From a virus, in the IMG/VR virus record IMGVR_UViG_3300010354_000879, positions 1 to 20,405 of that record: a stretch of DNA of 20,405 nt; one strand, written 5' to 3'. Below are positions 198-16,294 of the stretch, in pieces; the stretch's first letter is position 1; each line of letters starts with the position of its first letter. The notes beneath the pieces were generated by a model. It saw nothing but the letters and a program-made list of their open reading frames with translations, was not told the DNA's origin and searched no databases. Made by a program: the position numbers and the translations under genes.

Positions 198-599
198 ATG
201 CCAGTAGAGCGAATTAGTAAACAATTTAAAGATATCAGTCTGTCATTGCAGGTAAATCCTTTAAATTATGACCTAATTGACATTAAGAATGAAACTGCAA
301 TATCTCGCTCTATACAAAATCTTGTTTTTACTATACCCGGAGAAAAATTTTTCAACCAAAATCTAGGTTCTAGAATTTCTAATAGTTTGTTTGATAATAT
401 TGATGATGTTTCCGCGTCAATTATTCAAGATGAAATAAGAAATACTATAGAAAATTATGAACCTAGAGTTGATTTAATTAGTGTAGATGTTTCTCCAAAT
501 TATGATAATTATGAATTTAATGTTACAGTAAGATATTACATTATTGGAATTGATGCCTTGCCACAACAACTTACGTTTGCACTACAATCAGTACGATAA
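198..599 (+). CDS. 25: Baseplate wedge subunit gp25 (sheath initiator, TssE-like)
   Basis: The 133-residue product matches T4 gp25 in length (about 132). It carries the gp25/TssE signature: an N-terminal PGEKFF turn region (residues 47-52), a following Leu-Gly-Ser-Arg segment, and the conserved EPR core motif at residues 88-90 (NYEPRVDLISVDV). In T4-like phages and type VI secretion systems, gp25/TssE sits on the inner wedge and starts sheath polymerisation by donating a strand to the first sheath subunit. The ATG at 198 is the first start after the upstream stop and keeps the whole fold. No GGAG-type ribosome site precedes it. It is followed by gp6 with a one-base overlap (TAATG), which suggests coupled translation. 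It is probably transcribed from the late-promoter motif at 168-175. Confidence 0.93.
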   Translation: MPVERISKQFKDISLSLQVNPLNYDLIDIKNETAISRSIQNLVFTIPGEKFFNQNLGSRISNSLFDNIDDVSASIIQDEIRNTIENYEPRVDLISVDVSPNYDNYEFNVTVRYYIIGIDALPQQLTFALQSVR

Positions 600-2500
600 T
601 GTCATTAGTAAATTTTACAAATTTAGATTTTGATCAGATCAAATCTTCTATTAAAGATTATCTGAGATCTAATTCAAATTTTACTGATTATGATTTTGAA
701 GGATCTAATCTTTCAATTATAATTGATACTTTAGCATACAACACATATATTGCATCATATAATGCAAATATGGTTAGTAATGAGGTTTTTATTGATAGTG
801 CTACCTTAAGAGAAAATGTTGTCTCACTAGCAAGAAATATTGGATATGTTCCAAGATCAAGAAAATCGGCAAAATCAAATATAAGTTTCTTCGTTGAAGT
901 TCAAAACCCTTTGGTTAAAACGGTAACTTTAAAAAAAGGATCTGTTTGTAATACATCTAATTTTGGGAGATCTAGTTATGTGTTTTCTATTTTAGATGAC
1001 ATCACTGTTCCTGTAGTGAATGGAATCGCAACATTTGATGCGATAGACATTTATGAAGGGTCTTATGTTAAAAATGATTTTATCGTAAGTTCTGCCAACA
1101 GCAATCAAAGATTTATTTTAGAAAATAGTGGGGTAGATACTGAAACTTTAAATGTAACAGTTAGAGATAGTATCAATAGTACCTCGGCAAGAAAATTTGT
1201 AAACTCAAATTCAATTTTAGACGTAACTTCTTCATCTAAAGTATTTTTTATTCAAGAAATAGAAGACGAACAATATGAGTTAATATTTGGTGATGGTGTT
1301 TTTGGAGAAAAATTAAATGAAAACAATTATATTGAAGTTTCATACTTGATAGGTAATGGTTCTGAAGGAAACAATTTCTCATCATTTGGATTTTCGGGAG
1401 TTTTAGTAGATCAAAAAAATAATTCATTTTCAAAAGGTGTTTCTTTAATTACAACAAATATTTTATCTAATGGTGGAGCTGAAATAGAATCTGTGAATTC
1501 TATTAAAAATTTTGCACCTAGATTGTATTCTTCTCAAAATAGAGCTGTAACTTCATCAGATTATGAAACTCTTATTCCAAAAATTTACCCGCAAGCAGAA
1601 TCAGTAAGTGCTTTTGGTGGAGAAGATTTAGATCCACCACAATATGGAAAAGTTTTCATAACAATAAAACCTTTTTATGGATCTTTTATATCAAATGCTA
1701 TTAAAGACAACATAAAAAGTAAATTAAAAAAATATGCTGTTGCGGGAATTGTCCCAGAGATATTGGACGTAAAATATTTGTATATTGAATTAGAATCAAA
1801 TGTTTACTGCGATTTAAATTCAGTACAAAGTAATGACCTAATAAAAACAAAAATAATTGATAATATAACCAAATATGCAAACTCAGATGAGTTTAACAAA
1901 TATGGGGCTAGATTTAAATATAGTCAATATCAAAAATTAATTGATTCCACCGACTCTTCGGTTACTTCAAATATTTCAAAAGTTCAAATTCGTAGAGATT
2001 TAAATGTTTCTCTGAATCAATTCGCTCAATATGAAATTTGCTTTAAAAATCAATTTCACATTAAGAACTATGATGGATTCAATATTAAATCTTCTGGATT
2101 TAAAGTGAGTGGGATATCCCAAACTGTTTATTTTGGCGATATTCCCAGTTCAGATAAGAAAATCGGATCTATATTTTTATTCTATTTGATTTCAGAAACA
2201 GAACCAGTTGTTTCTAAGTATCAAGTTGGTTCAATAGATTATGTGAAAGGTGAAATAATAATAGATCCAATCAATATTATTTCTACGGAAAAAACACAAG
2301 GAGGAACTCCTATCATTGAAATAAGTGCCTCTCCAGAATCGAATGATGTTTTTGGTATTCAGGATCTTTATTTGGAGATAGATATTAATAAATTAATTGT
2401 GGATATTATTCCCGACAATACTGAATCGGGTTCCGATACTTCAGGAAAAAATTATATAGTATCTTCAAGTTATTCAAATAGCAATCTAGTAAGAAATTAG
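599..2500 (+). CDS. 6: Baseplate wedge subunit gp6 (baseplate J-like)
   Basis: The 633-residue product is close in length to T4 gp6 (about 660). The N-terminal region (residues 1-100) has the DYDFEGSNLSIIIDTLAYNT pattern typical of gp6/gpJ proteins. The baseplate-J-like core contains TSSDYETLIPKIYP (from about residue 318) and the strongly conserved GGEDLDPPQYGKVFITIKP beginning at residue 340. The C-terminal part carries a VGSIDYVKGEIIIDP segment typical of marine gp6 proteins. In T4, two gp6 chains join one gp7 chain as the wedge core and form the continuous ring of the inner baseplate. The start ATG overlaps the gp25 stop by one base, and no other start fits better. The gp7-like gene begins 3 bases after the stop, so gp25, gp6 and gp7 look like one translational unit. 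No frameshift or truncation is seen. Confidence 0.95.
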   Translation: MSLVNFTNLDFDQIKSSIKDYLRSNSNFTDYDFEGSNLSIIIDTLAYNTYIASYNANMVSNEVFIDSATLRENVVSLARNIGYVPRSRKSAKSNISFFVEVQNPLVKTVTLKKGSVCNTSNFGRSSYVFSILDDITVPVVNGIATFDAIDIYEGSYVKNDFIVSSANSNQRFILENSGVDTETLNVTVRDSINSTSARKFVNSNSILDVTSSSKVFFIQEIEDEQYELIFGDGVFGEKLNENNYIEVSYLIGNGSEGNNFSSFGFSGVLVDQKNNSFSKGVSLITTNILSNGGAEIESVNSIKNFAPRLYSSQNRAVTSSDYETLIPKIYPQAESVSAFGGEDLDPPQYGKVFITIKPFYGSFISNAIKDNIKSKLKKYAVAGIVPEILDVKYLYIELESNVYCDLNSVQSNDLIKTKIIDNITKYANSDEFNKYGARFKYSQYQKLIDSTDSSVTSNISKVQIRRDLNVSLNQFAQYEICFKNQFHIKNYDGFNIKSSGFKVSGISQTVYFGDIPSSDKKIGSIFLFYLISETEPVVSKYQVGSIDYVKGEIIIDPINIISTEKTQGGTPIIEISASPESNDVFGIQDLYLEIDINKLIVDIIPDNTESGSDTSGKNYIVSSSYSNSNLVRN

Positions 2501-2503
2501 TAA

Positions 2504-3288
2504 ATGGAAAATACAAGAGTTAAAATCAGTTCTATTGTAGAAAGTCAACTTCCTAGATTTGTTAGAGAGGATTATCCTTTAGTATCTGAATTATTAAAAG
2601 AATATTATAAATCTCTGGAGTCTAAAGGATCTGCTTATGACATTCTACAGAATGTAGATCAATATATTAAAATTAATAATTTAACGAATTTGGTATCAAG
2701 TACAGATTTAACATCAGATGTTGGATTTGCTGATAATGTGATTAATGTTTCTAGTACTGAAGGGTTTCCAAAAACATATGGATTAATTTCTATTGATGAT
2801 GAAATTATTCTTTATAAATCCAAAACTTCAACAACTTTTGAAGAGTGTATACGAGGATTTAGTGGAATAACTGAATATTCTACTCCAAATTCTGAGGACT
2901 TTATTTTCTCCTCCACTGAAATTCAAGAACACACTTCCACAAATTCAGACGGAACAAATAAATCAGTCACCAATCTTAGTAATCTATTTTTAACAGAATT
3001 TTTTAATAAATCCAAAAAACAGTTTTTATATGGATTTGAAAATAGAAATTTATATTCTGATATAAATCAAAATTTATTTTTAAAGCAATCTAAAGATTTT
3101 TATTCTTCAAAAGGCACGGACGGATCTTTTGAAATATTGTTTAGAGTTTTGTACGGTAAAGATGTTGAAGTAATTAGACCTGCTGATTATTTGATAAAGC
3201 CATCAGATGCAAAATACAGAGTAACAAAAAATATTGCAGTTGAATCTATTCAAGGAAATCCAGAAGATCTTATAAATCAAACAATTTT
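2504..3288 (+). other. gp7-like wedge core region within the giant protein (residues 1-262)
   Basis: This part of the giant protein should bind gp6. Visible landmarks are a predicted helix ending in LLKEYYKSLESKG (about residues 31-43), a beta insertion at about 75-160, a second helical part (LTEFFNKSKKQFLYGF), DFYSSKG at 198-204, LFRVLYGKDVEV at 212-223, and DLINQTIF near 258-262. From memory T4 gp7 has the same series of elements in its C-terminal third (a helix ending near a Tyr-Leu-Ser-Asp-Gly stretch, DFYSTKG, LFKVLYNEEVE, DLVGQTIY). In T4 this core follows a long N-terminal arm, whereas here it begins the protein. Confidence 0.7.
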
Positions 3289-6200
3289 TCAAGATGAATA
3301 TAATAATATTCCAAAATCATTTGGTACTGTAAACGACGTACAAAAAATTATAAGGAATAATAAAGAATATTATATTTTGATGGTAGATTATGATTTTAAT
3401 AAAGATGTAAATGTTTCTGGATCTGTTTTTGGTGAATTAAAAATTCACCCCAAAACAAATATTTTAGATGATGTTTCTATTAATTCAACAACGATTGTTG
3501 TAGATTCTACAATAGGATTCCCCAAAAGTGGGGAATTGATAGTAATTAGTGGAGGTACGACTTATAATATTCAATACAATGGAACAACTGTAAATGAATT
3601 TTTAAACTGCAGTGGGGTAAATGGAATTTTAAATAGAGGTTTGGAAATATGTTTAAACACCTATGCTTATGGATATTCTAATAAATCAGCAAAAAATGAT
3701 GCAGAAGAAATAAGATTTAGGATAACTGGAGTTTTATCTAAAATAGATCCTCCGAAGGATGGTGTTTATTATGAAAAAAATGATATCGGTAAGATTGTAC
3801 ATCTTGGATATAATAAAGATGATGTATTGAATACTAATTGGGTTTTTAATAGGACAATTAAGTGTGAGGTTTCCAATTTTATAGATGAAGGTGGATTTGA
3901 ATATACTATAGAAACTTTTGATAATAACGGAATATATCAAGGAGATTCGGTAGAAATAGAATACATTAATAAATCAACAGGAAAAAGGGAAGTTTCGGTA
4001 ATTGATGGATTTAATGTAACAACCCCCACAGGAAGTATACCACAAAAAAGATTTAAAATTCAAACAAATGGATTTGAAATTTCCAAAGTCTTTACAGTAA
4101 AAAAATTAATATCTAAATTTTCAAATAATTTTGTCGCAGATGTATTAAATTTATATAAAGATTTTGGTAGCGATGATTTATATGTAACTTCATCGTCTCT
4201 TCCATTTTATTCCCAAAATTTAAATTCTGAGTTTAAAGATTTAAAAGTAGTTTTAAACGGATCATTTTCTGGTGATACTTTAAAAATAGTAAATGATGGT
4301 GATAGTCACGGGTTCATAACAGGTGATGCTGTTGTATATTCTAGAACTGATTCAACAACTGATTCTAATAGTTTAGGAATACAAACTGGCGTATATTTTG
4401 TCAAAAAGGTTGATGATACTCAAATAAAAATAGCAAGAAGTAGATCTAATATAGATGCAGGAAAATTCATTAGTATTGCTTCAACATCACTAACTGATAG
4501 TATTAATTTCATTAATCCTTTAGTATTTTCAAAAGTAAATAACATTCCTTCTACTGTAGATTCTCAGAGATGCATCAAATTACTAAAAAATGCGGAAAAT
4601 GATGGAAAAAAATATGAAACAAAGAGTGGCACTACTGGAATATTAATCAATGGTGTTGAAATAAGTAATTACAAATCAAAAGATGTAGTTTATTACGGTC
4701 CAATAGAGAGTATAGATGTTATTTCTTCTGGTAAAGGATATGATATTATAAATCCACCAAAGTTAGAAATTTCATTACCAAACAATACTTCTATTGGAGC
4801 GAGTGGATATTGTTGGGTAGAGGGATCTTTAGAAAAAATAGATTTAATTGATGGTGGATTTGATTATATCGACAATCCAATAATTACAGTTTCTGGTGGT
4901 TCAGGGGAAGGTGCAGTTATTACACCCAAAATAGTAGATTATGATTACTATGTTGATTTCAATTCTTCATCATCGAATGAAAAAATAAATTTAACTACAA
5001 ATACTTTAGGTTTTTCTACTTTTCATAAGTTTAAAACCGGAGAATCAATAATATATCTTGCAGATGACACTGGAAAAATAGGTGGTTTAACAACAGAAGC
5101 AAAATATTTTGCTAAAGTTATTGATGATTATACAATAAGATTGCATAAGACATATAATGATTCTTTGGTAGGAATAAACACTATTGACATAACTTCTTTT
5201 GGTACGGGAAATCACAGATTTAGATCATCAATCAAAAAGAAAAAAATTAGTTCATTGATTGTTCTTGACCCTGGAAGTGGATATAAAAATAAAAAAGTAT
5301 CAGTTTCATCGTCAGGAATAAACACTGCAAATGATACAGTAAATGTCTATAAGCATCCATATTTAAGTGGAGAACTTATCTACTATTATGGGGGAGATAC
5401 TAATATAAGTGGGTTGAATACAGGAAAGTATATTGTTACTAAAATAAACGACACCTCATTTAAACTTTCTAATATTGGAATTGGAAGTACCTCTTTTGAT
5501 TTTTATTATCAAACAAATCAATATGTAAATTTCAAATCCACGGGAAGTGGAAATCACATTTTTAATTACGAGCCAATTGAAGTTAATATTACCGGTCAAG
5601 TTGGAGTTTATACTACTACCGGATTGACTTTTTCTGCAAAAGTTCAACCATCCTTTAGAGGTAAAATTGATTCCGCATTTGTCTATGAAGGTGGAACTGG
5701 ATATGGATCTACGGATATTATCAACTTTAATAAACAACCAAGTTATACTTTAAATTCCGGTTCAGGTGCTGTTGTATCTCCAATAATTTCTAATGGGAAA
5801 ATAGTAAGCGTAACTATAAAAGAGGGAGGTAAAGATTATAATTCTACACCAGATCTGGTAATTAGAGGATTTGGAATTGGTGCAGTTTTAACACCAATTA
5901 TAAGTAATGGAAAATTGGTTGAAGTTAAAGTATTATCTGGGGGAATTAATTACGAACAAAAAAATACCTTCATAGATGTCATTTCTTCTGGTTCTGGTTG
6001 TCAATTACAATTTGTTCCAAAAATCTGGACTATTAATAAATTTAAAAAATTAGTAGAAACTAAGAAGATATCTTCCGATGATGGTGTAATTTATGAGGGT
6101 AATAATAAAATATATGGATTACAATACACTCATTTATATGCACCAAGATCATTAAGGAAAAAAGTATACTCTGAAAATTTTGATTCTGAACTAAAGAAAT

Positions 6201-9200
6201 ATAGAAGTGATTATGAAAATGATTTTTCATCTAATACCGAAAAGTATCACTCACCTTTACTGGGTTGGGCTTATGATGGAAATCCAATATATGGACCATA
6301 TGGATACGATTCCATATCAAATAAAAGAGTTAGACAAATTCGTAGTGGATATGGAGATCCTATAGACGATCAAAATTACAGACCAGATAAAAATATTTTT
6401 CCCGCTGGTTATTTTATTGAAGATTTTGTGTTTGAAAATAATGGGGACTTAGATGAAAACAATGGTAGATTTTGCATTACTCCAGAATTTCCTAATGGAA
6501 CTTATGCTTACTTTATGACCCTTAGTGAAAGTCCTGCGGAAGAAACTAAAGGAATTTTTGCCAGAGAAAAAGAACCAAAATTCCCTTATATTATAGGAAA
6601 AAATTATAAATCAACTCCTATTAATTTTAATTTTGATTCAAAAGTAAATCAAGAAAACTTTGATTTTGTTGGAAAAAATATACTAAGGAATACTAGTTCT
6701 TATAACGTAGATAACGAAAACTCTTATTATGAATATTTTTTAAACTCTAGTGATTTTTTAACACAAAACATTAGGGTAAAAAATACTTCAAAGGGAAAAA
6801 TAGACTTCATTAAAGTAATATCAGATGGTGAAAATTATAAAGTAAATGATAAATTAATTTTTGATAATTCGAATACGGGTGGATCTTCTGCTAGTGCTAG
6901 TGTAAGTTTTATTGGCGGAAAAACAATAACTGGTATTTCACAAACTTCAACTAAAATATATGATGTAGAGATATATCCATCAACGACACTGAACAAAGTT
7001 ATAGGATTTTCTTCATCTCCTCATAATTTAAACAATGGTGATATAATTTATTTAAATTCATTGACTGAATATGATCCATCTTTACAAAAATCATTTAAAG
7101 TTGGAATAATTTCAGAAAGATTTATTTTAAATACATCTATAGGAAATACCAATGTTACTGGAATAATTACATATTTTAATATCTCTAACATTACTGATGA
7201 TAATATTAGAGAAAATGATATTTTTTCTGTTGGTTCAGAAGAGGTTAAAATATTATCGATTGATAAAAAATCGTCAAGAGTAAAAGTTTTACGAGGTCAA
7301 AATTCTACTGTTTCATCAGCACACACTGCATATTCTACATTATACCAAAAACCTAGAAAATTCTATGTTGATTTAGCAAATCAATTAAAAAATAAAAATT
7401 ATAATTTAAACAGAGAAATATATTTCAATCCATCAGAATCTTTGGGTATAGGAACTATTGTTGGAATAGGATATACAATCAATTTTTCAAATCCTGGATC
7501 AGGAATAACATCTATCATCATTCCTGAAAAATCAATTTATTTAGAAAATCATAATTTAAAAACTGGAGATGAGTTAGTTTATAAAACTAATGGAGGAAGT
7601 TCAATAATAGTTTCAAATAGTGGAATTTCTACATTTAGTTTATTGAATAATTCTAAAGTATATGTTGCTAAGATTTCCGATAATTTGATTGGAATATCCA
7701 CTATTAAAGTCGGAGTAGGTACTTCTGGTGGATTTGTAGGAATATCTCAGACTGGATCAACACTATTCTTTACAAATTCTGGATCAGGAGAGAATCATAG
7801 TTTTGTTACAAATTTTGATAATGTATCTAAAGCAAATTTAACAAAAACATCAATAACAGTATCTCTTGCTTCTACACATTCACTTGAAGTGAACGATCAA
7901 GTTGTTTTTGAAGTTTTTCCAACGACCACAAAAACAATAGAAGTTCAATATAATAATTTTCATAAAAGATTAGTAGTAGATCCAAAGTATTTTTCGACTG
8001 TTGATTTAACTAATAATTTAATACCAATACAAAATCACGGATTTATTAATGGAGAAAAATTAATTCACGTATCTTCTTCCCCCGCACAAGGATTAGAAGA
8101 TCAAGGAATATATTATGCAATAGTTTATGATTCCGACAGAATTAGACTATCGGATTCATATTATGGAGCAGTTTCAGAAAATAAATCAATCGTTGGAATT
8201 TCATCAACTTCATTTGGAACTTTATATCAAATAAATCCAAAAATAAACGTTGAAAGAAATCAAAAAGTTATATTTGATCTATCAGACTCTTCTTTATCTC
8301 AACAATCAGTGGGTGTTGGTAGAACTTCTTCGTTTGACTTAGAAATATTTTCTGATGAAGCATTTTCTACAAAATATTTCCCAATAAATTCCGATGGTTC
8401 CCCTAAAATAATTAAACTAGGTCAAGTTGGAATAGATTCTTATGCGAAACTTGAGTTTCAAATAGATTCTGATTTTCCAGACAATCTTTTTTATAAATTA
8501 ATTCCAACGGCAATAGGTAAAAATGACATCATCATAGATGATGATGTATATTCAAAAAATAAATTAGAATTTTATCCCAGCGAACTAAATGGCATTAAAA
8601 TCATTAGTGGAATAGGATCGACTTCATTCACTTTTGAAAATAAAAATGAGTTATACTTTGATTACTATTCAAATTCAAATGCTACTTTTAGATACATTAC
8701 AAACTCAGAAAATGAATCTGGTAATATTGAATCAATACAAATAAAGTCTTCAGGAAATTCTTACCAAAGACTTCCATCAATATCATCAATAACATCTTTA
8801 AATGGAAGTGGAGCTATAATCCTTCCACAAAGCAACACTATGGGAAATATAACAATTCTGGAAATAGAAGACATAGGATTTAATTATTCTGTGGATACTA
8901 CTATCAGACCTCTTGTTAAATTTCCCTCAATTTTAAGAGTTGAGCCATTGTCTTCAATAAAATCCGTAGAAATTACATCTTACGGAAAAGATTATACTAT
9001 TCTTCCGGATTTTGTAGTAATTGATGGTTTTACTAATAAAGTTGTAGAGAATATAACTTTAAATTATGGTTCTAACAATAACTTCTTAAATATTGTAAAA
9101 AATGATAACCTATATGGGGTTACTCCAAAAATTATACCAGTAAATAATTCAAACGGAGTTGGAATTAGTTCTATATCATTTAATAATACAACCAAGATAG

Positions 9201-10207
9201 TTTCAGCTGTTCTTAACAAACAATTCAGTGATGTAAATGATTTTCCTTTTTCGATAGGAGATAGGGTTTTAATAGAGGGTATATCTGTTTTAGATTCTTC
9301 AAATAAAGGATATAACTCAAAAAATTATGATTATTCTACGTTCCCCGTAGTTGGAGTAAATACTAGCTTAGGTGGATCAAACGCATCAATTGAATATTAT
9401 TTGGGAGATTATCTACTCTCTTCAGAAATTCCAGGTACTTTTGACGAAGAAAATTCTTCCGGAAGAGTGATCTCTGAAAGTTCTTTCCCAACCTTCAATA
9501 TTATTTTAGAAAAAAATTCTTTCGTTATAGGGGAGGAAGTTCAATCGGATAATATTATCGGTAAAGTATTACGATGGGATCCTAAAAACGAGTACTTAAC
9601 AATAGAATCAACAAAGGATTTTGTTTTAAACTCTTTAATCTATGGGAAGGCATCAAAATCCCAAGCTTTTGTTAAAGAAGTTTTATCTAGCGAATCTTTC
9701 TGTCGTGTAGATGCTTCATCGATAGTTAAATCTGGATGGAAATCTAACACTGGTTTTTTAAATGATAACTTACAAAGAGTCCAAGATAGTGATTATTATC
9801 AATATCTTTCATATTCTTTAAAATCGGAAGTTCCTTTCCTGGAATGGAATGATATTGTTAGTAACTTAAATCATACACTTGGATTTAAAAAATTTAGCGA
9901 TTTAACATTAAACTCTTCTCCTCAAAGTTTTAGTGGAATATCCACGAGTCAAGATTACGGACTTCTTTCAGGATTATCTAATGTAAATAGTATAGTTGAT
10001 GTTGATTGTATAAGTGATTATGATTTAGTATCTGAAAATAATTTTTATGTAGAAAATACCTTAACTAGTGATGAAATAATATTTAATTCGGTTATTCTTC
10101 AAGATTACTCAGAATCAATTGGAAATCTAGTACTAAGTATCGATGATATAAGTGTAGATTTTAACACATCATTATCAAAAACATTTGTAACTTCATTTAA
10201 TATCTAA
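2504..10207 (+). CDS. 7: Giant gp7-like baseplate wedge protein with beta-repeat modules and a YHYH-like domain
   Basis: This is a 2567-residue virion protein. Residues 1-265 resemble the C-terminal third of T4 gp7: a helical start (QLPRFVREDYPLVSELLKEYY), then DFYSSKG at 198-204 and ILFRVLYGKDVEV at about 211-223. The recalled T4 counterparts are DFYSTKG and FLFKVLYNEEVEI. In T4 this part bundles with gp6. A small beta module (about 80-120, with FPKTYG and IDDEIILYKSK) is inserted into it. The remainder is beta-rich: six H-x(4)-GD/GE modules between about 600 and 1910, about ten GxGY-type strand repeats, and a YHYH-like domain at about 1247-1368. The end (about 2411-2468, GWKSNTGFLNDNLQRVQDS onward) resembles a conserved tail of marine-phage giant structural proteins. 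T4 gp7 is 1032 residues and its distal domains differ, so much of this protein has no T4 equivalent. The position between gp6 and gp8 supports the gp7 call. No signal peptide or membrane segment is seen. Confidence 0.8.
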   Translation: MENTRVKISSIVESQLPRFVREDYPLVSELLKEYYKSLESKGSAYDILQNVDQYIKINNLTNLVSSTDLTSDVGFADNVINVSSTEGFPKTYGLISIDDEIILYKSKTSTTFEECIRGFSGITEYSTPNSEDFIFSSTEIQEHTSTNSDGTNKSVTNLSNLFLTEFFNKSKKQFLYGFENRNLYSDINQNLFLKQSKDFYSSKGTDGSFEILFRVLYGKDVEVIRPADYLIKPSDAKYRVTKNIAVESIQGNPEDLINQTIFQDEYNNIPKSFGTVNDVQKIIRNNKEYYILMVDYDFNKDVNVSGSVFGELKIHPKTNILDDVSINSTTIVVDSTIGFPKSGELIVISGGTTYNIQYNGTTVNEFLNCSGVNGILNRGLEICLNTYAYGYSNKSAKNDAEEIRFRITGVLSKIDPPKDGVYYEKNDIGKIVHLGYNKDDVLNTNWVFNRTIKCEVSNFIDEGGFEYTIETFDNNGIYQGDSVEIEYINKSTGKREVSVIDGFNVTTPTGSIPQKRFKIQTNGFEISKVFTVKKLISKFSNNFVADVLNLYKDFGSDDLYVTSSSLPFYSQNLNSEFKDLKVVLNGSFSGDTLKIVNDGDSHGFITGDAVVYSRTDSTTDSNSLGIQTGVYFVKKVDDTQIKIARSRSNIDAGKFISIASTSLTDSINFINPLVFSKVNNIPSTVDSQRCIKLLKNAENDGKKYETKSGTTGILINGVEISNYKSKDVVYYGPIESIDVISSGKGYDIINPPKLEISLPNNTSIGASGYCWVEGSLEKIDLIDGGFDYIDNPIITVSGGSGEGAVITPKIVDYDYYVDFNSSSSNEKINLTTNTLGFSTFHKFKTGESIIYLADDTGKIGGLTTEAKYFAKVIDDYTIRLHKTYNDSLVGINTIDITSFGTGNHRFRSSIKKKKISSLIVLDPGSGYKNKKVSVSSSGINTANDTVNVYKHPYLSGELIYYYGGDTNISGLNTGKYIVTKINDTSFKLSNIGIGSTSFDFYYQTNQYVNFKSTGSGNHIFNYEPIEVNITGQVGVYTTTGLTFSAKVQPSFRGKIDSAFVYEGGTGYGSTDIINFNKQPSYTLNSGSGAVVSPIISNGKIVSVTIKEGGKDYNSTPDLVIRGFGIGAVLTPIISNGKLVEVKVLSGGINYEQKNTFIDVISSGSGCQLQFVPKIWTINKFKKLVETKKISSDDGVIYEGNNKIYGLQYTHLYAPRSLRKKVYSENFDSELKKYRSDYENDFSSNTEKYHSPLLGWAYDGNPIYGPYGYDSISNKRVRQIRSGYGDPIDDQNYRPDKNIFPAGYFIEDFVFENNGDLDENNGRFCITPEFPNGTYAYFMTLSESPAEETKGIFAREKEPKFPYIIGKNYKSTPINFNFDSKVNQENFDFVGKNILRNTSSYNVDNENSYYEYFLNSSDFLTQNIRVKNTSKGKIDFIKVISDGENYKVNDKLIFDNSNTGGSSASASVSFIGGKTITGISQTSTKIYDVEIYPSTTLNKVIGFSSSPHNLNNGDIIYLNSLTEYDPSLQKSFKVGIISERFILNTSIGNTNVTGIITYFNISNITDDNIRENDIFSVGSEEVKILSIDKKSSRVKVLRGQNSTVSSAHTAYSTLYQKPRKFYVDLANQLKNKNYNLNREIYFNPSESLGIGTIVGIGYTINFSNPGSGITSIIIPEKSIYLENHNLKTGDELVYKTNGGSSIIVSNSGISTFSLLNNSKVYVAKISDNLIGISTIKVGVGTSGGFVGISQTGSTLFFTNSGSGENHSFVTNFDNVSKANLTKTSITVSLASTHSLEVNDQVVFEVFPTTTKTIEVQYNNFHKRLVVDPKYFSTVDLTNNLIPIQNHGFINGEKLIHVSSSPAQGLEDQGIYYAIVYDSDRIRLSDSYYGAVSENKSIVGISSTSFGTLYQINPKINVERNQKVIFDLSDSSLSQQSVGVGRTSSFDLEIFSDEAFSTKYFPINSDGSPKIIKLGQVGIDSYAKLEFQIDSDFPDNLFYKLIPTAIGKNDIIIDDDVYSKNKLEFYPSELNGIKIISGIGSTSFTFENKNELYFDYYSNSNATFRYITNSENESGNIESIQIKSSGNSYQRLPSISSITSLNGSGAIILPQSNTMGNITILEIEDIGFNYSVDTTIRPLVKFPSILRVEPLSSIKSVEITSYGKDYTILPDFVVIDGFTNKVVENITLNYGSNNNFLNIVKNDNLYGVTPKIIPVNNSNGVGISSISFNNTTKIVSAVLNKQFSDVNDFPFSIGDRVLIEGISVLDSSNKGYNSKNYDYSTFPVVGVNTSLGGSNASIEYYLGDYLLSSEIPGTFDEENSSGRVISESSFPTFNIILEKNSFVIGEEVQSDNIIGKVLRWDPKNEYLTIESTKDFVLNSLIYGKASKSQAFVKEVLSSESFCRVDASSIVKSGWKSNTGFLNDNLQRVQDSDYYQYLSYSLKSEVPFLEWNDIVSNLNHTLGFKKFSDLTLNSSPQSFSGISTSQDYGLLSGLSNVNSIVDVDCISDYDLVSENNFYVENTLTSDEIIFNSVILQDYSESIGNLVLSIDDISVDFNTSLSKTFVTSFNI
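4707..5992 (+). repeat. Cluster of GxGY-type beta-strand repeats in the gp7-like protein
   Basis: Short repeats of the form I-x-S/K-hydrophobic-x-V/I-x-x-x-G-x-G/D-Y occur at about 4707 (IDVISSGKGYD), 4831 (IDLIDGGFDY), 5247 (LIVLDPGSGY), 5666 (AFVYEGGTGY), 5803 (VTIKEGGKDY) and 5917 (VKVLSGGINY). They are often followed by a Pro-rich strand and a Gly-Ser-Gly-Ala linker. Further copies lie near 6801, 8729, 8846 and 8957. The pattern suggests a stacked beta-solenoid or beta-prism-like fold, as in phage fibres. This is inferred from the strand periodicity only. Confidence 0.6.
5765..5992 (+). repeat. Adjacent tandem pair of a 38-residue (114-base) repeat
   Basis: The unit beginning GAVVSPIISNGKIVSVTI at 5765 is followed exactly 114 bases later, at 5879, by GAVLTPIISNGKLVEVKV. 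Both then give a Gly-Gly-x-x-Tyr turn. At the protein level the first 18 positions are mostly conserved. At the DNA level the copies are clearly diverged, so this is an old in-frame tandem duplication and not a recent one. It is the clearest tandem unit within the wider GxGY repeat cluster. Confidence 0.75.
6242..6607 (+). other. YHYH-like domain within the gp7-like protein (residues about 1247-1368)
   Basis: The segment contains KYHSPLLGWAYDGNPIYGPY (from residue 1247), then DLDENNGRFCITPEFPNGTY at about 1315-1334 with AYF following, and FPYIIGK just after 1360. This order (GW/GxAxDGxPIYGPY, then GxLDexNGrxxxTPExPxGTYxYxxT, then xPYxiG) is the layout I recall for the YHYH protein family, known from bacterial secreted proteins and marine phages and without a settled biochemical role. 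The domain sits in the middle of the giant protein, flanked by beta repeats on both sides, so it is probably displayed on the baseplate surface. The defining YHYH tetrapeptide itself is degenerate (YAYF at 1334-1337). Confidence 0.65.
8729..9020 (+). repeat. Second cluster of GxGY-type repeats near the end of the gp7-like protein
   Basis: Three more copies of the strand repeat lie close together: IQIKSSGNSYQRLP (about 8729), ILEIEDIGFNYSVD (about 8846) and VEITSYGKDYTILP (about 8957), spaced about 110-117 bases apart. That spacing equals the 114-base unit of the tandem pair at 5765, so the two clusters probably descend from one repeated element. The glycine of the turn is kept, while the second glycine is lost in each copy. 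Confidence 0.55.
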
Positions 10208-14752: not shown

Positions 14753-16294
14753 ATGTCTGCGATTATAACAGATCAATTAAGAATATTTAATGCCGAAAAC
14801 TTTATTTCTTCATTTGAGTCTGAAGATAATAATTACTATTCATTTGTTGGATTGACAAATTCAACAGATTATGATACTAATTGGGAACAAACTCCACCAT
14901 CACCGATAGATTCTCTAGATAATTACCATGATATTTGGGATACTATTATAGCACTTAAAAAAATTAATTCTGATGATGTTAGACAGGTCGTAAGAAAAAT
15001 AGAGTGGGAGTCTGGAACAACATATGATATGTATAGGCACGACATAAGTAGAAATAGGCTTTCAGTTCCATCTTCAAGAACTAGTTTGTATGAGTCAAAT
15101 TTCTATGTGATTAATAGCGATTATCGTGTTTATATTTGTTTGCAAAACGGCATTGATCCAGAAAACCCAAATGGAAGACCATCAATAGATGAACCAACAT
15201 TTACGGATTTAGAACCAAAAAGTGCTGGATCGAGTGGAGATGGGTATATATGGAAATACTTATTTACAATAAAACCATCGGACATTGTAAAATTTGATTC
15301 TATAAATTATATTCCAGTACCAAAAAATTGGAGTACCAGTACAGATACTTCAGCAATTAGGACAAATGCAAATCCATTAATAAGTGGACAGTTAAAAATT
15401 GCTACTATTTTGAGTAGAGGTAGTGGACTTGGATCGCCAAAAGTTTATACTAATGTTCCAATTATTGGTGATGGTTTTGATGCAGAAGCAACTATTGTTG
15501 TTGGAAGTGATTCGACAGTAGAATCTATTAGTATAACTAACGGCGGTTATGGATACACTTATGGAACTATTGATATTAAATCAGCAGGAATAACCGGAGA
15601 TGTTCTTCCGACCTTTGAAGTCATAATTCCACCACTAAAGGGACACGGATATGATATCTATAAAGATTTGGGTGCTAAGAGTGTACTAATTTATTCAAGA
15701 ATAGAGAATGATAACTTAAATCCCGATTTTATTACAGGCAATAAAATTGCAAGGATAGGAGTATTAAAAAATCCACTTTCTCCAGGAACTACGGATACTA
15801 ATTTAAGTATACCAAAAGCTAGTAACACATATGCGATAAAATTATCTGGTAGTTTCACATCAGCTTCTTTTGCAGCGAATTCAACTATCACTCAAACGGT
15901 AAGTACTGGAACTACTGCGGTTGGGAGAGTGGTATCTTATGATAATAGAACTGGTGTATTGAAGTATTGGCAAGACAGAAGTATTGTTGGATTTCAAACT
16001 GGAAATAGCAATTTAAGTTTTACCCCACAATATGGATATGAACTTATAAGATTTTCTTCTTCTGGAGGATCTATTAATGGAGTAACCAATACTTTACCAA
16101 TTGATACTTCATTTACTGGGTTAAGTACAACCATAAATAGTATAACATACAATCTAGGACAATCTTTTACAAATGGAATATCAACTCCAGAGGTTGAAAA
16201 ATATTCCGGCGAGATGATTTATATTGACAACAGACCTTCAATAACCAGGTCACCAAATCAAAAAGAAGATATAAAAGTTATTTTGCAATTTTAA
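14753..16294 (+). CDS. 8: Baseplate wedge subunit gp8, enlarged
   Basis: This 513-residue protein lines up with T4 gp8 (334 residues, recalled) at both ends and at internal anchors: YDTNWEQTPPSPIDSLDNYH with DIWDTIIALKKI near the N-terminus, GDGYIWKYLFTIKP at 162-175 (T4 GDGYVWEYLFEIPP), GNKIARIGVLKNPL at 329-342 (T4 GNKGFRQISIITNPL), and SGEMIYIDNRPSI with a short tail to the C-terminus at 485-513 (T4 SGEMIYMENRPPI). In T4, gp8 is a dimer within each wedge that binds gp7, gp6 and gp10. The extra length is in two places: about residues 195-310, which include a GGYGY-type strand repeat shared with the two upstream genes, and about 343-484, where T4 has only about 28 residues. The ATG at 14753 follows a late-promoter motif and has no clear ribosome site. 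Confidence 0.88.
   Translation: MSAIITDQLRIFNAENFISSFESEDNNYYSFVGLTNSTDYDTNWEQTPPSPIDSLDNYHDIWDTIIALKKINSDDVRQVVRKIEWESGTTYDMYRHDISRNRLSVPSSRTSLYESNFYVINSDYRVYICLQNGIDPENPNGRPSIDEPTFTDLEPKSAGSSGDGYIWKYLFTIKPSDIVKFDSINYIPVPKNWSTSTDTSAIRTNANPLISGQLKIATILSRGSGLGSPKVYTNVPIIGDGFDAEATIVVGSDSTVESISITNGGYGYTYGTIDIKSAGITGDVLPTFEVIIPPLKGHGYDIYKDLGAKSVLIYSRIENDNLNPDFITGNKIARIGVLKNPLSPGTTDTNLSIPKASNTYAIKLSGSFTSASFAANSTITQTVSTGTTAVGRVVSYDNRTGVLKYWQDRSIVGFQTGNSNLSFTPQYGYELIRFSSSGGSINGVTNTLPIDTSFTGLSTTINSITYNLGQSFTNGISTPEVEKYSGEMIYIDNRPSITRSPNQKEDIKVILQF

Follow-up and report, generated by a model that had tools for sequence, protein, structure and literature searches.

Baseplate-wedge subunit gp7 of a marine phage related to T4: probable division by a giant insert within its core and by gene fission

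Passages of PMC6300606 and PMC10457771 describe how, in T4, the T6SS and phage XM1, a helical bundle and a trifurcation connect a gp7-like subunit to two gp6-like proteins. According to the same passages, the XM1 subunit, gp17, has 242 residues with the bundle hairpin at its start, and its residues 80-106 (core domain) and 201-242 (C-terminal) are located in the density of the tail spikes, which they hold. For marine phages, a passage of PMC7029224 reports that pelagi- and cyanomyophages have no T4 gp7, for which VrlC seems to substitute. Gp7 is tabulated in a portion of PMC5349666 that compares DLP6 with other T4-superfamily phages (values of 4-11.3, which we read as percent identity), and an excerpt of the proteome table of cyanophage S-SZBM1 in PMC9146016 gives a 'baseplate wedge initiator' the values 724.20, 6619 and 71, read here, from a row without its headings, as kDa, residues and peptides. 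Neither a bipartite gp7 core nor a fission of gp7 was found in print in our literature searches.

The window analysed here is the whole of a 20,405-base IMG/VR viral fragment whose + strand carries six large genes (Table 1). The gp7-like gene, gp7A, sits between gp6 and gp8, a position already given in the initial annotation and borne out by PHROG and Pfam matches of the neighbours; a further ORF, gp7B, intervenes between gp7A and gp8. The gp6 product is the expected partner of gp7 in a (gp6)2-gp7 wedge. NCBIfam returned no family for gp7A (P0001), gp7B (P0003) or P0006, and a Pfam VID match in gp7B fell below the cut-off and was disregarded.

Table 1. Predicted genes of the window and elements of gp7A, with the basis of each assignment (residue numbers are those of gp7A)
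Feature	Residues or length	Coordinates	Strand	Basis
gp25		198-599	+	PHROG and Pfam
gp6		599-2500	+	phrog_219 E 2.6e-194; Gp6-like helical domain 11-83 E 4.9e-16
gp7A, predicted baseplate wedge core protein	2567 aa	2504-10207	+	PHROG
Block A1, first helical hairpin	6-60	2519-2683	+	profile A; low-confidence AF2 helices between 12 and 54
Small beta module between A1 and A2	61-157	2684-2974	+	profile-A gap; AF2 strands 66-157
Block A2, with DFYSSKG and LFRVLYGKDVEV	158-227	2975-3184	+	profile A 163-240; phmmer T4 gp7 674-759
Core beta domain	228-~315 (right edge approximate)	3185-3448	+	compact-gp7 profile aligns into the stretch
Giant insert inside the core	~316-2415 (~2,100)	3449-9748	+	A-B distance 2184 vs 88-102
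YHYH-type module, containing HSPLLGWAYDGNPIYGPYGY	1244-1341	6233-6526	+	PF14240 E 3.2e-21
Block B	~2416-2475	9749-9928	+	profile B 2424-2470; equivalent to T4 gp7 ~861-897
gp7B, predicted gp7 distal third as its own ORF	1501 aa	10215-14720	+	PHROG 2885; S-SM2 colinearity; split common to 11 loci
gp8		14753-16294	+	PF09215 E 2.2e-16; phrog_438
Open ORF after gp8		from 16301	+	position

Sequence homology identifies the 2567-residue ORF as gp7, the baseplate-wedge subunit, in a marine phage related to T4. In a phmmer search of 177,635 PDB sequences, residues 1-266 match T4 gp7 (5hx2/5iv5) at 674-759 with E 8.9e-5 and KP1 gp7 (9f4a) with E 3.2e-3, and nothing besides these two gp7 proteins appeared up to E 1; the whole protein, searched in the same way, gave no PDB match up to E 0.1. 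A 33-sequence profile of this region also placed the same two gp7 sequences at the top (E 9.6e-6 and 1.7e-5, the next at 0.21), with gp7 matches that cover profile positions 183-217 only. DFYSSKG lies at residues 198-204 (from 3095) and LFRVLYGKDVEV at 212-223 (from 3137). The tblastn search matched 1392 of 50,697 phage records at E <=0.01, including cyanophages, pelagiphage HTVC008M and T4-type phages; identity in the best 40 rows is 42-51%; 36 of these are named cyanophages and four are marine single-cell viruses without annotation, and many of the 40 carry the label baseplate wedge initiator or subunit, the gene being called gp7 in six. PHROG 2885 (baseplate wedge subunit) covers residues 3-2559 of the ORF over profile positions 7-2551 (E 0). 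Against PF23786 (Baseplate_wedge) residues 1-266 score 21.7 bits, below the gathering score of 27 bits, and on score the ORF is not filed as a member of that family.

These searches agree with the initial annotation in its central point, that the N-terminal region is a wedge core and the homologue of the last third of T4 gp7. The outcome that had been named as refuting it, no profile match to gp7, did not occur, T4 and KP1 gp7 ranking first in the profile check of the region. The core was, however, not hidden, as had been written, the proteins of S-SM2, P-SSM2, P-HM1, S-B05 and others being already annotated as gp7 or baseplate wedge initiator. That marine T4-like phages are described as lacking gp7 is true of the passage in PMC7029224, which prints the absence, but many cyanophage records name the protein.

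The core itself is bipartite, since the last element of the T4 core, block B, is found at residues 2424-2470. As far as sequence allows it to be judged, the order of the parts is that of T4: a helical block A, a small beta domain and block B. Profile A was built from 5 sequences and profile B from 8; the source phages include no cyanophages and no T4-type phages, and several are classed in Kyanoviridae. In the window's protein, profile A matches at 6-60 and 163-240, and profile B at 2424-2470 with E 1.8e-12 among 20 proteins and 1.8e-9 among 4035 ORFs; in T4 gp7 the two matches are at 645-760 and 864-890, the second weak alone (E 0.0036). Both profiles match 20 of 20 gp7 proteins, a set that includes the profile-building sequences, always in the same order. 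Among the 4035 ORFs of at least 80 aa from 205 sources, A was found in 204, B in 150 and both in 146; the same ORFs reversed gave no match to either profile at E 1, and the five T4-type proteins fell below the profile B cut-off.

Compact relatives, in which A, the beta domain and B are contiguous in about 290 residues, allow the same comparison along a short chain. In BLAST comparisons, the 586-residue gp7 of Desulfovibrio phage 7757 matches T4 gp7 645-888 as a single stretch (E 1.6e-7, ten-protein set) and the window's protein in separate pieces, two of them within residues 1-249 (block A) and another at 2412-2469 (block B) with 43% identity (E 1.4e-8, ten-protein set). A search of IMG/VR with the Desulfovibrio phage gp7 found no relatives. 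A 16-sequence compact profile spans A, beta and B on KP1 gp7 649-914 (E 2e-11) and A and beta on T4 gp7 646-828 (E 2.1e-9), the same beta domain following block A in both proteins. The block B alignment, for which 30 of 31 computed coordinates were used (L159 was left out), has a consensus around QDSxYYQxxSY...H(P/T)xGFxxF, and the window's block aligns in it with 29 other gp7 B blocks. It corresponds to T4 gp7 861-897, a match that is weak alone (E 0.089 for T4 and 0.0082 for KP1, the next chance match being at 1.6) and that hhalign gives at 84% (E 7.5e-6); when the whole compact and T4-type alignments were compared by hhalign, the alignment ended before B. PF23786 matches 13 of the 30 B blocks, the window's not among them, and 15 of 16 aligned compact or mid-size relatives (46.7 bits for L128). 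Blocks A and B together constitute a sequence definition that finds gp7 in its compact, giant and T4-type forms.

The rest of gp7 had initially been thought replaced by a new distal part of ~2300 residues. Block B is instead kept, displaced ~2,100 residues downstream; most of the stretch taken as new is an insert inside the core, and gp7 extends into the gene that follows. The original observation was real but incomplete: gp7 was already a familiar name in cyanophages, and what had been overlooked is the distant block B, the YHYH-bearing insert and the conserved fission of the gene.

In four loci (L020, L054, L070 and L085) A and B fall in separate ORFs; each locus is broken differently, three by overlapping frames and one by an in-frame stop, and we read these breaks as putative sequencing errors or decay. 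The gp7 of L085 (4751-5423) is of pelagiphage type and has its in-frame stop within block A2; that of L084 is intact, and L084 and L085 are each 95% identical to HTVC008M.

The AF2 model of residues 1-270 has helices where they were expected, with a mean pLDDT of 61.7 (low confidence), and its best-predicted part is the beta module, with strands at 66-157. Its structural matches fall mostly on this module (63-161) and are non-specific, being to phage-tail and F1-ATPase beta domains (Z 6.8-10.2); T4 gp7 is not among the best 50 of 712 rows with Z at least 2, and the helices are poorly predicted. The model of the compact relative L128, with a mean pLDDT of 49.2 and a block B average under 60, matches T4 gp7 645-896 (5iv5) with Z 10.2 over 225 aligned residues; the rmsd of 18.7 is large and the domains are therefore placed differently in the two structures. 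The next matches are KP1 gp7 (Z 10.1) and the gp7 of 5hx2 (Z 9.1), followed in fourth place by a P1 baseplate chain (Z 7.0, 166 aligned, rmsd 13.0), which is in the tool's unspecific range.

An N-terminal core, initially held to be unusual, is the rule in our sample: of 145 scorable ORFs, 144 have the start of block A no further than residue 40 of the open frame, the exception being L171, where it starts at 150. This set is limited to ORFs that carry both blocks, less the 5'-truncated L069, and contains near-copies, for example HTVC008M as both L078 and L083. The IMG/VR loci were gathered with the window, HTVC008M and a compact-gp7 alignment (one block-B pattern, best 80 of at least 580) as queries, and since no T4-type query was used, the statement applies to lineages outside T4's group. 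Within that group, 1430 GenBank records match the T4 gp7 core region; of the five T4-type phages that we examined, four are recorded as Straboviridae and one, Vibrio phage F86, is unclassified. In these five, block A starts at 633-713, that is, 632-712 residues precede the core. T4 gp7 with its long N-terminal extension may be the special case.

The distance between A and B varies widely. It is 88-102 residues in 10 compact ORFs and 2184 in the window, which belongs to a set of 37 ORFs with distances of 2142-2828. Intermediate groups lie at 170, 234-253, 322-381, 403-445, 495-554 and 654-890, with single cases at 1078 (L188) and 1584 (S-PM2). We note that the distances step through ~90, 170, 250, 325, 425, 500 and so on, as if domains of ~80 residues had been added singly. 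In L079 and L080 (ACG-2014d and S-RIM8), ~600 residues separate A1 from A2, a second insertion site, here in the helical block.

The giant insert contains GGxGY-type repeats, seen by eye, and the YHYH-type module, which is strongly conserved in gp7s with a giant insert. Its short motif, defined by a regular expression for DGxPIYG and close variants, occurs in 38 of the 39 gp7 ORFs whose block B lies past residue 1500 and in none of the 107 others, and the printed contexts read HSPxxGWAYDGNPIYGPYG with few changes; by elimination, the single giant gp7 ORF without the motif is that of S-RIM8 (L080). The YHYH region has no credible relative among PDB sequences (best E 0.17). The module is a concrete candidate for tests of host contact or catalysis in cyanophages. 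As a separate observation, the gp7 of HTVC008M (NC_020484; L078 11983-15033) is labelled 'head closure Hc2' in NC_020484. The Hc2 PHROG (460) has matches in the window as well, to gp7B with E 4.3e-8 and to gp8 with a weak E of 0.063, possibly through GGxGY-type repeats.

By colinearity of sequence, gp7 extends beyond the stop of gp7A, and gp7B is its distal third. PHROG 2885 (4179 positions) spans both ORFs, gp7B reaching profile position 4177 (E 1.3e-281), and the single gp7 of S-SM2 is colinear with the pair: gp7A residue 2567 meets S-SM2 residue 2612 and gp7B residue 6 meets 2616. We compared 38 junctions, those of the window and of the 37 loci out of 75 that reach this point; 11 are split at the same site, 26 read through and one was unscored (L004, in which the start of gp7B was unmatched). 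Every one of the 11 split junctions consists of TAA, 2-10 nt and ATG, with frame offsets of 0 in 2 loci, 1 in 5 and 2 in 4. The window and the 10 other contigs that share the site are as little as 57% identical over the last 150 residues. In a tree of 40 proteins, obtained by a quick method and with long branches flagged among the distant rows, the 11 split loci form one clade (SH-aLRT 99), with one change. Gene fission in the window's clade very probably split off the distal part.

A second fission site is seen near S-SM2 residue 2961-2966, in phage B23 (L206 4477-16256) and in L021 (5652 onward), the latter being counted among the 26 read-throughs at the site of the window's clade. Both sites lie downstream of block B, and two fission sites, both after the core, offer a natural map of the part of gp7 that may leave the chain. 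Extra genes are also found between gp7 and gp8 in S-B05 (L005 32110-33486), S-PM2 (L077 21148-21675) and Melnitz (L118 7316-10041).

We propose, with a probability of about 85%, that the window encodes a gp7 wedge subunit whose core has been split by an insert and whose distal segment has been cut off as gp7B. The two halves of the core would fold together from both ends of the gp7A chain, and this core would join two copies of gp6 in a helical bundle and trifurcation, as in T4. The A-B distance would have grown from 88-102 to 2184 residues by the ~2,100-residue insert, with its YHYH module and beta repeats, which may loop out to the baseplate periphery. Gp7B would be synthesised on its own and join the wedge as a second subunit; the distal part would not need to stay covalently joined to the core, and its release would best explain the split. 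The insert and gp7B would lie in places comparable to the stretches of XM1 gp17 that hold the spikes, and this analogy suggests peripheral or host-contact functions for both. To our knowledge, giant-gp7 marine phages lack T4's gp9-gp12 layer. A bolder version, which we hold tentatively and at somewhat less than even odds, is that, with the core formed from two chain ends, the insert is the main peripheral or host-contact apparatus replacing that layer, gp7B being independent and perhaps exchangeable.

Could the N-terminal ~265 residues be the sole part derived from gp7, everything distal being a new C-terminal replacement? The PDB searches would fit, given that residues 1-266 match T4 gp7 at 674-759 only and that the whole protein finds nothing up to E 0.1, as would the lack of a PF23786 match to the window's block B. 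However, this block belongs to the same core, aligns with the 29 other gp7 B blocks and is the same as the last core element of KP1 and T4 gp7, and we consider such a replacement improbable. It is a little less probable still that no true fission occurred and that a sequencing error, readthrough or frameshift hides one gp7 of ~4070 residues. S-SM2 (4156 aa) and S-B05 (4024 aa) do have single ORFs with colinear sequence, but the window and 10 contigs carry the break at a common site, with TAA and then ATG 2-10 nt later, and the 11 split loci form one clade. Programmed frameshift or readthrough was considered and rejected: TAA is followed by ATG in 11 of 11 and all three offsets occur, so that no single recoding signal explains the split.

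Least probable of all is that VrlC, and not the gp7-like protein, replaces gp7 in these phages, as the passage in PMC7029224 states. The window has a gp7-like ORF in addition to the ORF after gp8, which by its position, the feature compared here, answers to the genes annotated VrlC (or VlrC) in S-SM2, HTVC008M and DLP6. Of these two ORFs only the gp7-like one bears A and B. HTVC008M itself carries A and B in the 1016-aa product of a gene flanked by gp6 and gp8, and in its annotation, as in that of S-SM2, VrlC is a gene of its own that follows gp8. The gp7 with both blocks in HTVC008M and the examined cyanophages contradicts the statement made in that passage.

Among known systems, XM1 gp17 (242 aa) and TssG of the T6SS, likened here from partial descriptions, represent the one-per-wedge partner of two gp6-like proteins at its minimal size. 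The compact gp7s of Desulfovibrio phage 7757 (586 aa) and Ochrobactrum phage OC (631 aa) share with the window's protein a core that starts at the N-terminus and comprises A and B, but their A-B distance is 88-98 and they lack a giant insert. In Ochrobactrum phage OC (L117 3106-4989), the annotation 'T4-like gp7' is given both to the gene in gp6 position and to the true gp7 adjoining it. T4 gp7 (1032 aa; 5IV5, 5HX2) shares the order of A, beta domain and B and the position between gp6 and gp8, with ~640 residues before the core and a short A-B link, whereas the window's gp7 lacks an N-terminal extension, has ~2,100 more residues ahead of B and has its distal part split off. The gp7s of cyanophages S-SM2, P-SSM2 (5195 aa) and S-B05, gathered in PHROG 2885, are the same protein, with the YHYH insert and the gp6-gp8 position; they are encoded by single genes, unlike the 2567 + 1501 aa of the window. 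Synechococcus phage B23 (gp257/gp258) has, like the window, gp7 in two genes, but its split lies ~350 residues further on (S-SM2 ~2961) and has a 4-base overlap.
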